The notes: generated by a model from the sequence alone, not told the origin. Counted from the stretch's first letter, positions 7,805-12,719 are shown. The stretch is 64,000 bases of DNA from Isosphaera pallida ATCC 43644 (GCF_000186345.1 NC_014962.1:1364001-1428000); one strand, 5' to 3'. A program made the numbers and translations.

Positions 7805-8514
7805 CCGGTTCGCTCCCGGCCGTTACGATCGTGGTCATCCAATCCAATCGATCCGTCGGACAACGGTGTTCCAATCATACAAACGAGGCGGAGTTCGTCA
7901 GGTCCGCCAAGTTTGCGGTGGTGGGTGATGCGAGTGGGATCGATGATGATCGATGCGATCCCGGTGATTGCCTCTCGGCTGAATCGTTTGGTCAGTCACG
8001 TGACGTAGGGAAGGTTGGTCGGGCGCGGCGTGCATTCTGGCCTCATCCCTCTTGACGGGCGGTTCGACGCGCCCACGTCGAGTTTATCGGATCCAAAGCC
8101 GTTCGACCAGACCGACTCGGCAAGCCGGCCCATCCGATCGCGGCGGTCGCGCCGGTGGGATCACCCGCGGGAGGGGATTACGGACGGGTTTCCCATCTTC
8201 GCTCCGCGGGTTCGTGTGGCATAATCGCGCGATGCCGATTCGAAATCGATTCGAATGGTCCGCGACTGGTTCGCTTGCGTTTGGTCGGAGTGGGTTGCCC
8301 TAGCTGGTCGGACGCGGCCTCCTGGCGAGACCGAGTTGCTTTGACGGCTTCGATTCGATTCGCTTCGCCCCGTCGAACTTCGTTCCTGTTGGTTTTGGTT
8401 CGCACTCCCTTCGATTCGGTGGACCCGATCCCTTCCGCACCGCGTAAGCAACGTGAGGATTGAATCCGGGTTCCAGTTTCAACCCGGTGGAGTCTTCTGG
8501 TGGAGAACCCCGTC
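7805..8514. other. Divergent intergenic region
   Basis: About 710 bp between a minus-strand hypothetical and the plus-strand secreted protein at 8.5 kb. It is rich in GATTCGATTCG-like words around 8220-8420, probably compositional. The only signal supported is the ribosome binding site just before 8515. No RNA gene or terminator was recognised. Confidence 0.4.
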
Positions 8515-10260
8515 ATGTTTCAACCGCGACCCCCGCGGCACCGAGCTGGGTCGAAAACGGTCTTACTCGGATTGGCCCTGAGCCTCGGGATCTCGGCGAT
8601 GCTGTGTTCGCTCGCGGCCCGCGCCGACGATCCGGGACTCGCCGACTCGATTGGATCGCCCGCCGCACTGGCCGTCCAGCTCGAGGAGTTGGCCCAACGC
8701 ACCGCTGACCAAGGTGATCCTCAAGCGGCCCGTTTGCTGCTCGACCGCGCTCGGACTTTACGCGACCGTGTGACTCGGGTCGCTATGCGTCAAGACCAGG
8801 AGGATCAGCCCTCTACCCTAGACGATGATCTGGGAGACGCCACCTTCGACGAGGAGTCCACGCCGCCCCGAGCCGGCGTGCCGACCGGTCTACCTGAGCC
8901 CCGCGCCACCATCGAGCGAACCGCGGAACTCGACCGGATCGCGGTTCAACAACTCACCGACGATGTCAACCAGCGGATTCAGCGTGCCCGTCAACTGATC
9001 CAAGCCCGCCAACCCGCCGCCGCCTTGAGCGTGTTGCGGCTGGCTAAGATCGTCGTTGAGAACAACCCCGCGGTGTCCCCCGAAGTCAAACGCAATCTCG
9101 ACCGCCGTCTTCAAAACGCCATCATCTCGGCGGTTCGGGATGAAGAGCGAATCATTGCTGAGACCGCCGAGCGAATTCGCATCCAGTCTCAGGCCGAAGA
9201 GCAACTCCGCGCCTTGGATGAACTGCGCACGATTCAAACGACCGTGAGTTCGTTGATGACCCAGTTCGACGCCGCGATGGACCAGGGTGATTTCAACGTT
9301 CGTGCCTTCACCAAGGACACCGTGGACGCCTTAGCCAAGAACACCAAACCATTCCGCACCGCCTTCGACCTGGCGGTGAAGGCCCGCGCGTTGTCTCCAC
9401 GCGCTGAAGCGCCCCACGCCGGGGTGTTCAAGGCTCAGACCGAAGGCTTTCTCGCCACCGCCTTGGCCTACCGCGATCTGAAGTTCTACCGAACCCTCCT
9501 GACGCTTGGTGATATCGAACGGGCCGCCATTCCATTCAACGATTCCGAGCCCATCCAATATCCTGACCCCGACGAGTTCCGCGAAATGTCGGAGCGTCGG
9601 ATCGCCCGTTACGAATCAACGAACTTGTTCGAGACCGACGAACAAAGCAAACTGATTCGTGAGAAGCTCGAAGAAGTGATTCCGATGCCCTTCGCCGAGC
9701 CGACTCCGTTCAGCGAAGTCATCGAATACATCCGTAACGCCACCCGCAGCCCTGAACTGCCCGGCGGCATCAATTTCTTCGTCGACCAGGCCGGTCTGGA
9801 GGAAGCCGGTTTCACCATGGATGACACCGTGACCCTCGACCTTCAAGGTGTCAAGCTCAAGACCAGCTTGGAACTGATCCTGAAGCAACTGAAGCTCATC
9901 TCCACCGTCCGCGACGGCATCCTCCGAATCGACTACGAGGATTCCGAGGACCTGCCATTGACCATCCGAGTTTACCCTGTGGCCGACTTGTCTTTGATTC
10001 CCTTCAACCTGATCATGGGTGGAGGTGGCATGGGTATGGGTGGCATGGGTATGGGCGGCATGGGTATGGGTGGCATGGGCATGGGCGGCATGGGTATGGG
10101 TGGCATGGGCATGGGCGGCATGGGTATGGGCGGCATGGGTGGCATGGGTATGGGCGGCATGGGTGGCATGTTCTCCTTGGGTCTAGAAGGATTCCTGCCA
10201 ACGCTTCCCCAACCTCCCACCTCGCCCGCCGATGGCCTGACTCAAAAAAAAATGAATTGA
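8515..10260 (+). CDS. Secreted protein with STN-like domain and GGMGM low-complexity tail
   Basis: About 581 aa from the ATG at 8515 (GGAG 9 nt upstream); a GTG at 8500 would add 5 residues. A signal peptide is visible (basic start, hydrophobic VLLGLALSLGISAML, cut near ARADDP). Residues about 40-390 are Glu/Arg/Ala-rich helices, probably coiled coil, with TPR-like character. Residues about 385-480 (FSEVIEYIRNATR, LKTSLELILKQLKL, GILRIDYED) resemble the secretin/TonB short N-terminal (STN) fold. Then a (GGMGM)n tract. The ORF ends at TGA 10258-10260 just after an A9 run, and the next ORF begins inside the stop as TTGA. Function unknown; probably periplasmic or envelope. Confidence 0.85.
   Translation: MFQPRPPRHRAGSKTVLLGLALSLGISAMLCSLAARADDPGLADSIGSPAALAVQLEELAQRTADQGDPQAARLLLDRARTLRDRVTRVAMRQDQEDQPSTLDDDLGDATFDEESTPPRAGVPTGLPEPRATIERTAELDRIAVQQLTDDVNQRIQRARQLIQARQPAAALSVLRLAKIVVENNPAVSPEVKRNLDRRLQNAIISAVRDEERIIAETAERIRIQSQAEEQLRALDELRTIQTTVSSLMTQFDAAMDQGDFNVRAFTKDTVDALAKNTKPFRTAFDLAVKARALSPRAEAPHAGVFKAQTEGFLATALAYRDLKFYRTLLTLGDIERAAIPFNDSEPIQYPDPDEFREMSERRIARYESTNLFETDEQSKLIREKLEEVIPMPFAEPTPFSEVIEYIRNATRSPELPGGINFFVDQAGLEEAGFTMDDTVTLDLQGVKLKTSLELILKQLKLISTVRDGILRIDYEDSEDLPLTIRVYPVADLSLIPFNLIMGGGGMGMGGMGMGGMGMGGMGMGGMGMGGMGMGGMGMGGMGGMGMGGMGGMFSLGLEGFLPTLPQPPTSPADGLTQKKMN
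10015..10170 (+). repeat. Tandem GGMGM-coding repeat
   Basis: About ten copies of a 15-base unit coding Gly-Gly-Met-Gly-Met, some shortened to GGM. Third-position C/T variation between copies shows it is older than a fresh slippage product. It forms a flexible Met/Gly linker near the C-terminus of the 8515 ORF. Confidence 0.9.
10244..10260 (+). promoter_or_regulatory. A9 tract with TTGA stop/start overlap (possible frameshift or re-initiation site)
   Basis: Nine consecutive A (10244-10252) lie six bases before the stop of the first ORF. The next ORF is in the -1 frame, open through this site, and its only early start is TTG 10257-10259 overlapping the TGA by TTGA. No Shine-Dalgarno precedes the TTG. 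A -1 slip on the A run would join both ORFs; re-initiation at TTG is the alternative. Confidence 0.5.
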
Positions 10261-11645
10261 ACAACGCGTTCTCCAAGACGCCCAAGGCTCCCAATCCCCC
10301 GGGAGCTACTCTTCGAGACCAGGACCGATCGAACCCGCCGCGGGGTTCTGGCGGTCCTGGTGCGTCCGGATCCCAACGTGGTTCCACGGCCGCCCAGCCC
10401 CCGCGGAGCCGTCCCGGTTCGACGGCGACGACGGCCACCGGCAAATCCGGCAAACCCACCATCAACGAGTTGCCTCCGGCTCGGGCGTCGTTGAGCGGCT
10501 CGGAGGACCCATCCTCCTCATCCTCGACCGCGGGCAACCCCCAATTGAAGACAGTTGGACCATTCGCCTTCTGGGACAGCTACTTCAAAACGCATGCCGA
10601 GACCCCCGAGCAAGTCGGCGAAAAAGTGGCGTTGCTCCGAAAAGAGTCTAAATTTGATCATATTGAAGCTATCCTGTGGAACTATCTCAAACATCATCCC
10701 CGCGAAGCCAAATCCTGGATGTATCAAGGTCTGGCGGTGGCGATGGACATCAACCGCCGCGATCCGGCCAAGGTCAAAACGGCGTTGAGCTACGCAGCCG
10801 ATTTGGCGTTGGCGTCAGAGGACGTGGCCGCAATGGTGATGGTGGCGGAACTGATGTACGCCCGGGGCATACGCAACGACGAGACGATCATTCGTTTGAT
10901 CGATACCGCTCGGACTAAGGGGCCGTTGTTGGCTGCTCCCAAACTGATGTCCCTGACTTTGGCGGTGGAGACGTTGGATCCCGAACGAATGGTCGCCACT
11001 GTGGAGGAGTTGCTGAGTGTGGGGTGGCCGCTGGTTGACGAGGCGATTCGCAAAAAGGCCCGCGAGAAGGCCGAAGCGCTCGCCGAGCAGTTGGACAAAG
11101 CGGGTTCGTCGGACGCTGCCCATCGCGTGCGTTCCCGTCTGGCGCGCTCCGAGGCCCGCGACCTGGTGATCCGCCTGACCTGGGATGGCGACGCCGACCT
11201 CGATTTGATTGTCGAAGAGCCTGACGGGGGCCAGGCTACGATGTTGACGCCCTGCACCATCTTGGGAGGGTCGATCCTCAACAATGGGTATGGCAAGAAT
11301 CCCGAGGAGTTTTACGTCTGTCCCCGAGCCGTGCCGGGGCGATATCGGATCAAGCTCGACCAGATTTACAACAATCCTAACAATCTCGCCACCCGCGCCA
11401 CGCTGGAGATCATCCATAACGAGGGATTGCCGACCGAACGGAAATCGACTGTCGTGGTCGAACTCGTCGCCGATGGAACCACCAAGCCCAAACCGGTCGA
11501 GGTCGTGGTTCGTCCCGAAGAAGGACGCCGCACCCAACTCCTCCCTTACGCGGGACTCTTAGCCGAGCAGCAAAAGTTCGCCGAAACCCTTCTCAAGACC
11601 CTCGCCGCGCCGGGTTCCGAACCGCCCAAAAAGGAAGACAAATGA
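10257..11645 (+). CDS. TPR-like protein with YfaP/DUF2135-like C-terminal domain (maybe part of the preceding protein)
   Basis: 462 aa if started at TTG 10257. The first ~90 residues are Pro/Ser/Gly/Thr-rich, more like an inter-domain linker than a protein start. Residues about 100-300 are helical repeats beginning FWDSYFKTH and including HHPREAKSWMYQGLAVAM. Residues about 300-430 (LTWDGDADLDLIVEEPDG, GYGKNPEEFYVCPRAVPG, YRIKLDQIYN) match the beta-sandwich pattern of YfaP/DUF2135-type domains. It has no signal peptide, although such domains are normally extracytoplasmic. That fits production as the C-terminal half of a fusion with the 8515 ORF. If separate, it would be a coupled second gene. 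Confidence 0.75.
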   Translation: MNNAFSKTPKAPNPPGATLRDQDRSNPPRGSGGPGASGSQRGSTAAQPPRSRPGSTATTATGKSGKPTINELPPARASLSGSEDPSSSSSTAGNPQLKTVGPFAFWDSYFKTHAETPEQVGEKVALLRKESKFDHIEAILWNYLKHHPREAKSWMYQGLAVAMDINRRDPAKVKTALSYAADLALASEDVAAMVMVAELMYARGIRNDETIIRLIDTARTKGPLLAAPKLMSLTLAVETLDPERMVATVEELLSVGWPLVDEAIRKKAREKAEALAEQLDKAGSSDAAHRVRSRLARSEARDLVIRLTWDGDADLDLIVEEPDGGQATMLTPCTILGGSILNNGYGKNPEEFYVCPRAVPGRYRIKLDQIYNNPNNLATRATLEIIHNEGLPTERKSTVVVELVADGTTKPKPVEVVVRPEEGRRTQLLPYAGLLAEQQKFAETLLKTLAAPGSEPPKKEDK

Positions 11646-11798
11646 TCGAATGCGAGTAGTCGAGTGCCACGTTCGTTTTGGATGGAGACCGCTCCGAGGC
11701 GGGATGGTTGGTCTTATGCGTTCGCGTGGGCAGGTTTGGCCACCCTCGCGGTTAGTTGGTCCCCAGACGAGGCGGCTTCGGTTTCAGTCTGAGAAGGT

Positions 11799-12719
11799 TT
11801 AGGAGATCAAGAAGAAGCGAAGGGTGAGAAAGGCCACCGGCGCGGCGAAGAGGGTCGAGTCTAACACGTCCAACACGCCTCCGAAGCCTGGCAGGACCTT
11901 GGAGGCGTCCTTGGTGAGGCAGTCGCGTTTGAGCATGGACTCCATCAAGTCGCCGAGTTGGGCGAAGATCGAGACCACGACTCCAAACGTGGTGGCCTCG
12001 ATGATCGTGAGGGTGGTCCAGCCTAGGGCCGAGGCTAAAGGGCCAGCGGTCAACAGGGTCAATCCCAGACCCACAGCCAGACCACCGACCGCCCCTTCCA
12101 CCGTTTTGTTGGGGCTGAGGGAGGGCCAAAGTTTGCGACGGCCGGCCAGGCGTCCAAAGGTGTACGCGCCGGTGTCGGAGCCTTTGGAGGCGACGACCAG
12201 TAAGAGCAACGGCAGCCATCCCGCCTGAGGTTGATCGAGCCAGCGGATTGCCGCCACGAACGACCCCAGACCACCAAGATAGCCGACCACGAAAACGGTT
12301 CCGGCCAAGTCGGCGACGGTCGCTCCGGTCTCGCGGCTTCGAAAGCAGAGGCTTAGCCGAAGGAAGGTCGCGAGGATCACCAGGGCCAAGGCGGTCATCG
12401 GCCAGGCGAGAAGGGGCAGTGGATCTGGAGGGCTGGCCTTGGTCGAGATGAAGGCCGTCTCCTCCGTCGAGAGTGCCGCGGCGCGGCCCAGGAAGATGCT
12501 CAGGACGACCGTGGCGGTTCCCAAGTGGGCGGTCAAACGCGAAGGCCGTAGACCCGTCGCTTGCAGCATCGCGGTCAGTTCGACGGCTCCGGCGGTCGAA
12601 CCCAGGAGACAGAGCAACATCCATCCCGGCGACCAGGATGGCCCATAGGTATCGGCCGTCAGGATCAGCCCCAGGATCAGCACCAAGGCCGAACCCATTG
12701 CCAGTCGCGCTTTGAGCAT
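11799..12719 (-). CDS. cdsA: Phosphatidate cytidylyltransferase
   Basis: Integral membrane enzyme making CDP-diacylglycerol from phosphatidate and CTP. 306 aa from the ATG at 12719; the open frame runs further upstream but without membrane character. About seven to eight hydrophobic segments are visible. Motifs: SKGSDTGAYTFGRLAGRRKLWPSLSPNKTVEGA, and the family signature region SMLKRDCLTKDASKVLPGFGGVLDVLDS. The usual PGHGGxxDRxDS reads PGFGGVLDVLDS here: His is replaced by Phe and Arg by Val, a divergence worth noting, though variants of this segment occur. It follows uppS by 158 bp on the same strand, the common uppS-cdsA order. Confidence 0.93.
   Translation of the reverse strand: MLKARLAMGSALVLILGLILTADTYGPSWSPGWMLLCLLGSTAGAVELTAMLQATGLRPSRLTAHLGTATVVLSIFLGRAAALSTEETAFISTKASPPDPLPLLAWPMTALALVILATFLRLSLCFRSRETGATVADLAGTVFVVGYLGGLGSFVAAIRWLDQPQAGWLPLLLLVVASKGSDTGAYTFGRLAGRRKLWPSLSPNKTVEGAVGGLAVGLGLTLLTAGPLASALGWTTLTIIEATTFGVVVSIFAQLGDLMESMLKRDCLTKDASKVLPGFGGVLDVLDSTLFAAPVAFLTLRFFLIS

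Follow-up and report, generated by a model that had tools for sequence, protein, structure and literature searches.

The stretch of DNA analysed here (the window) comprises 64,000 nucleotides of Isosphaera pallida ATCC 43644 (NC_014962.1:1364001-1428000), and positions in the table are counted from its first letter. Two open reading frames, ORF1 and ORF2, meet in it at a run of nine adenines. The end of ORF1 reads CTG ACT CAA AAA AAA ATG AAT TGA, with Lys-Lys falling at the A9. An initial reading of the locus from the sequence alone had described ORF2 as a -1 frame that passes the run without a stop and has neither a Met near its start nor an SD sequence. Each of these points holds: the -1 frame stays open for 419 nt ahead of the A9 and onwards to the stop at 11643-11645, the first ATG of ORF2 lies 475 nt past the start of the A9, and the only nearer candidate is a TTG at 10257, overlapping the ORF1 stop. 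ORF2 lacks an SD sequence in I. pallida. With one extra A, 579 residues from the start of ORF1 would be followed by 464 codons of ORF2, giving a fusion of 1,043 aa.

Table 1. Features of the ORF1/ORF2 locus of I. pallida (positions within the window)
Feature	Position	Strand	Basis or remark
ORF1, 581 aa and stop	8515..10260	+	ATG at 8515; homologues in 57/59 relatives
ORF1 signal peptide, residues 1-37, ...LAARA/DD	8515..8625	+	Translation, by eye
ORF1 secretin N0/STN-like domain	9640..9954	+	Domain matches (residues about 373-483, 9631-9963), fold match
ORF1 Gly-Met tandem repeat	10018..10179	+	Translation
A9, candidate slippage site	10244..10252	+	Sequence; exact length kept among homologues
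ORF2, -1 frame after one extra A	10251..11645	+	464 codons from AAT at 10251; stop 11643-11645; codon-position bias before any start codon
ORF1 stop TGA	10258..10260	+	5 nt past A9; same gap in 34/36 Isosphaeraceae
RNA hairpin in ORF2 linker, about 17 bp, 6-nt loop	10319..10360	+	An example of the hairpin conserved past the A9; tail not U-rich in I. pallida
ORF2 TPR-like alpha-solenoid	10560..11153	+	Model pLDDT above 90; TPR matches
ORF2 C-terminal beta domain, weakly like DUF2135	11157..11462	+	Domain search, model

As proposed in the sequence-only reading, ORF1 carries a signal peptide and ORF2 does not (signal peptides were judged by eye throughout), and ORF2 begins with a disordered linker rich in Pro, Ser and Gly. 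Upstream of its STN-like domain, ORF1 has a helical or TPR-like region. Among 27 family members, STN was matched in 17 and TPR_2 in 22. The STN-like domain belongs to a large paralogous family, with up to a dozen matching loci per genome in some Isosphaeraceae. ORF1 gave a fold match to the N0 domain of PilQ (rmsd 2.4 over 89 columns). A sequence search of the PDB returned only generic TPR matches for ORF1 and nothing convincing for ORF2; Foldseek and VIA-align returned common TPR folds for ORF2 and PilQ N0 for ORF1, with no Foldseek match at E<=0.001. These structural matches therefore do not point to a function. At a guess, the fusion and the short form would be two lengths of an exported protein that serves as a scaffold or in the envelope.

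Long A-runs are indeed rare in this organism. The whole 5.53-Mb genome (a chromosome of 5,472,964 bp and a small plasmid) contains five distinct tracts of at least nine A when both strands are counted, and two of them lie inside long genes: the ORF1/ORF2 tract and an A10 in dnaX. The rest fall between genes or within a CRISPR-like repeat array, where an A9 falls in a spacer-like segment (G000:C2:3156230-3156238, L004). The dnaX tract (G000:C2:4363699-4363708, around position 1501 of L005) is placed such that a slip would lead to an early stop, as for a gamma-type subunit.

Homologues of both ORFs are present in 57 of the 59 relatives sampled. Two ORFs joined at an A-run were found in all 36 Isosphaeraceae genomes in which the junction is assembled and in 76 Planctomycetales genomes, the order names of some genomes being inferred, partly from named loci. 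This set of 112 leaves out two special cases (G091 and G128) that are described below. Conservation of the tract had been put forward as a check on the initial reading, and it proved to be nearly complete: the run is exactly A9 in 110 of the 112 two-ORF homologues (36/36 Isosphaeraceae and 74/76 Planctomycetales), and the exact-A9 genomes belong to two orders and more than 50 genera. Among the named genomes that conserve the junction are Singulisphaera acidiphila, Aquisphaera insulae and Paludisphaera soli. The remaining two, G089 and G121 from the same Planctomycetales genus, carry A8G, which contains A_AAA_AAG. The run starts at codon phase 0, 1 or 2 in 66, 37 and 9 genomes, respectively (112 genomes, G128 removed). 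ORF2 lies in the -1 frame in 108 of the 112 genomes, including all 36 Isosphaeraceae, in which the ORF1 stop follows 5 or 7 nt past the A9. In the other four, ORF2 lies in the +1 frame and the A9 is kept: three species of genus g39 (G064, G084 and G123; L115, L122 and L125) and G061 (L146). AAA accounts for 27% of the Lys codons in the same genes of Isosphaeraceae and 48% in Planctomycetales; given these shares, the constancy of A9 is more than chance.

A homopolymer beside a frame break is also the classic signature of a sequencing error, a pseudogene or phase variation at the DNA level, and one genome (G091) does combine an A10 with a single ORF. However, the same run length recurs in more than 100 independently sequenced species, and both ORFs are conserved. 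The length variation predicted by phase variation was not seen between close relatives either; for example, the run is A9 in 14 of 14 genomes of genus g27. We therefore give error, decay or phase variation almost no weight. Several of the genomes are fragmented metagenome assemblies. Additionally, draft assemblies seem to break at the Gly-Met repeat (10015-10172 in the window) or at the Gly-rich sequence that corresponds to it, which leaves many homologues split between contigs.

How ORF2 is reached by ribosomes can be addressed by the same comparison. The TTGA overlap in I. pallida, in which a TTG overlaps the ORF1 stop, had left room for ORF2 being a separate gene translated by simple re-initiation. 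Across 113 genomes, however, an ORF2 start codon within -30 to +40 of the ORF1 stop is present in 19, and only one of these has an SD sequence. Moreover, ORF2 has no signal peptide here, whereas the truly separate ORF2 homologues have one. GC content by codon position did not discriminate the coding frame in the linker, which is uninformative in this respect because it is rich in Pro, Ser and Gly; pairwise substitutions were used instead. In 15 pairs of related genomes, substitutions between the A-run and the first ATG, GTG or TTG fall on ORF2-frame codon positions 1, 2 and 3 in the ratio 85:67:150 (chi-square p=6e-9). In 26 of 36 Isosphaeraceae, the first ORF2 codons past the run specify Gln-Leu through varied synonymous codons, and the ORF1 stop that overlaps them is retained as TGA, TAA or TAG. 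The substitution bias before any start codon indicates translation of ORF2 from the A-run onwards and rules out re-initiation as the principal route. As a general route to ORF2, re-initiation is thus largely excluded on comparative grounds, and we consider a separate ORF2 gene very unlikely.

We propose that the A9 is a programmed slippage site at which slippage by RNA polymerase would yield both a short ORF1 product and an exported fusion; we place the probability of this explanation at roughly 0.85. RNA polymerase would add an A (or another number of A that is not a multiple of three) at the A9 in part of the transcripts. Transcripts with A9 would encode ORF1 alone, a 581-aa exported protein ending 5 nt past the run. 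Transcripts with A10 would encode the exported fusion of 1,043 aa, with signal peptide, N0/STN domain, Gly-Met linker, TPR region and beta domain. This pair of products had been predicted by the sequence-only reading and is strongly supported by the comparative data. The locus combines a constant run of about nine A with an other-frame ORF that is open across the run and under coding selection from the run onwards. According to Baranov et al., a nine-A run of conserved length among homologues very likely serves purposeful slippage (PMC1088944). The slipping enzyme, the ratio between the two products and the role of the hairpin described below are what we infer; what the comparison itself displays, at the level of sequence, is the two-ORF arrangement, the exact run length, coding in the ORF2 frame, shifts in both directions and the hairpin downstream.

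The initial reading had offered programmed -1 ribosomal frameshifting alongside transcriptional slippage. A -1 shift on A_AAA_AAA would also make the fusion, with nine A in both DNA and RNA. All A9 genomes in which ORF2 is -1 have this heptamer in frame, and ribosomal shifting could therefore contribute; the two A8G genomes preserve A_AAA_AAG. The prevalence of the -1 frame (108/112) points the same way. Nonetheless, the heptamer needs only seven A's, yet the two extra positions outside it are still A in every phase, save in the two A8G genomes. The four genomes with a +1 ORF2 contradict the expectation that a ribosomal shift is always -1; this frame is reachable through an A8 transcript, in which one A is lost, and not by a -1 shift of the ribosome. 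An SD-like stimulator 5' of the run is present in 3 of 113 genomes only, and the sole conserved structure begins tens of nt downstream, past the usual reach of a frameshift stimulator. The exact run length in any phase and the two shift directions therefore argue for slippage by RNA polymerase, and we regard ribosomal frameshifting as an improbable source of the fusion. We also count as support for polymerase slippage the dnaX genes of most sampled planctomycetes, in which, as in Thermus dnaX (PMC1088944), an A9 or A10 is followed by an early stop in a different frame; their run varies in length and phase, and is sometimes absent.

Single-ORF versions of the protein, for which the sequence-only reading had suggested a search, do exist in relatives. 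In the Pirellulales, the Gemmatales and a Thermogutta-like lineage, homologues mostly consist of one ORF of about 1,200-1,600 aa, and those scanned carry an extra N-terminal VWA domain. An A-run longer than 6 nt is absent in 39 of 40 single-ORF loci. The exception is G091 (L131), which has an A10 and one continuous frame; in the A9 register, the old ORF1 stop persists 9 nt past the run, and no strong hairpin was found at the usual place. The A10 of G091 would mean either that the fusion became fixed recently or that the assembly is in error. Four Pirellulales (G155, G139, G175 and G141) have separate genes in which ORF2 has its own signal peptide, without an A-run. In G128 (L102/L221), ORF2 is detached and has a putative signal peptide of its own, next to a relic in-frame A9 and a decayed hairpin; we considered G128 as a further A9 case and rejected it, given its split ORF2 with a signal peptide and a run that is only a relic. 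An ORF2 with its own signal peptide, which if consistent would have spoken against a joint product, thus occurs in these five genomes, yet none of them has more than a relic of the A-run. Other short ORF2 frames in Pirellulales turned out to be mostly contig ends at the Gly-rich repeat. In G041 (L067/L068), ORF1-like and ORF2-like frames overlap in a -1 relation with no A-run of 7 or more, which speaks against the slippage reading and is either an error or another slippery site.

The family thus comes in three architectures, namely an in-frame fusion, a probable slippage fusion and separate exported proteins, with the A-run only in the slippage type. In a tree of the ORF2 domain, Isosphaeraceae and Planctomycetales form separate groups (support 100/100 and 98/90). 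The Isosphaeraceae group with the Gemmatales and family f4, and the Planctomycetales with the Pirellulales. The module of A9 and hairpin is either ancestral to the Planctomycetia and was lost at least twice, or it evolved twice; the tree fits both.

Beyond what the sequence-only reading had noted, which was right and understated the case, a conserved RNA hairpin lies downstream of the A9. Nearly all A-run genomes have a hairpin with a core of 15-16.5 bp about 45 nt past the ORF1 stop, and the distance from the end of the stop to the stem has medians of 45 and 44 nt in the two orders. Sliding-window folding from -210 to +450 around the run gave a single strong signal: windows from +30 to +120 are on average 4-8 kcal/mol below dinucleotide shuffles in both families. 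The best hairpin has an energy of -33.4 kcal/mol in Isosphaeraceae and -29.4 kcal/mol in Planctomycetales; four control regions gave -16.5 to -23.6 kcal/mol and cores of 5-8.5 bp. Cores are the best pick of each window, and control regions were picked identically. RNAalifold on 24 Isosphaeraceae detected compensatory change in 8 of 12 pairs, and the Gimesia-like set was too conserved to judge covariation. The hairpin is absent from the 40 single-ORF homologues, and a search of Rfam with region 8000-12000 gave no match at E<=1.

Food for discussion is what this hairpin does. We rejected a role as stimulator of slippage, because it lies too far 3' for a ribosome at the A-run and is still untranscribed when the polymerase slips. 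The likeliest role would be to define where unslipped messages end, either through intrinsic termination or by acting as a 3' barrier. The stem is stable and GC-rich, as in an intrinsic terminator. The tail is often U-rich, with a T fraction of 0.43 in Planctomycetales and 0.35 in Isosphaeraceae, compared to 0.15-0.24 in controls. In I. pallida the tail is UGCGUCCGG, which is not U-rich. The hairpin goes unflagged by simple terminator scans, both in I. pallida and on the coding strand of two Planctomycetales loci (L092 and L127). In Escherichia coli, a terminator reaches its full efficiency once the stop codon lies more than 27 nt upstream of it, and ribosomes that come closer repress it (PMC4824070). 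The gap of about 45 nt exceeds this limit, therefore the geometry fits an attenuator: the hairpin would terminate messages that have not slipped and would be passed on those that have. On the latter, ribosomes would translate across the hairpin, and ORF2 RNA would be made only when it can be translated. We tentatively suggest such an attenuator gated by slippage, in which the stutter on the A9, via the translating ribosome, decides whether the hairpin ends the message, although we hold it to be somewhat doubtful. If true, a single stochastic slip would fix the reading frame as well as the mRNA length, and the A9, the near stop, the fixed gap and the hairpin would together make up a compact gene switch with two outputs.

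Alternatively, the hairpin may not be a 3'-end element at all. It could be an RNase site, a pause site for ribosome or polymerase, or the outcome of a constraint on the linker at the protein level. The weak U-rich tail in Isosphaeraceae and its absence in I. pallida agree with this, as does a partly conserved RDQ..G.K motif that the hairpin encodes in Isosphaeraceae. However, the stem sequences diverge widely and their changes are compensatory, homologues that encode the same linker region within a single ORF do so without a hairpin, and the spacing from stop to stem is equal in two orders. We take these other roles as a real possibility, falling short of even odds.

The known bacterial examples of programmed transcriptional slippage are mainly dnaX, insertion sequences and a small number of secretion genes. 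In the searchable literature, which leaves out most subscription journals, we found no published report of the ORF1/ORF2 gene or of the pairing of A-run and hairpin. A single-copy chromosomal gene with an exact nine-A run in more than 50 genera and a downstream frame on either side offers a comparative system for studying selection on slippage. Moreover, annotation pipelines likely split ORF1 and ORF2 into separate genes, masking a large exported fusion in two orders. If the hairpin acts as proposed for the attenuator, slippage would control transcript length in addition to frame.

Among known systems, dnaX of Thermus thermophilus resembles the ORF1/ORF2 gene in its coding A9, transcriptional slippage, two product lengths and expected mixed mRNA; in Thermus, however, the standard transcript gives the long product, whereas here it would give the short one (PMC1088944). 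The planctomycete dnaX run is 9 or 10 A long and sometimes missing, unlike the run fixed at nine between ORF1 and ORF2, and a conserved downstream hairpin is not described for dnaX in papers such as PMC1088944. Translation-controlled terminators, such as pyrBI and the tR2 placement tests (PMC4824070), are comparable in that a terminator-like hairpin stands some way past a stop; at about 45 nt, it should escape blocking by the terminating ribosome. They differ in that the planctomycete hairpin is part of a second frame to which only slippage would give access, and its termination is putative. Finally, in mxiE of Shigella flexneri and tssM1 of Citrobacter rodentium, a slip on a homopolymer before a stop also joins two ORFs, giving the long product (PMC1088944, PMC4256274). 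The tssM1 run is an A11 with the stop 28 nt away, and a hairpin is not mentioned (PMC4256274). Both cases are on record for a single species or a few, whereas the ORF1/ORF2 junction is fixed across two orders.
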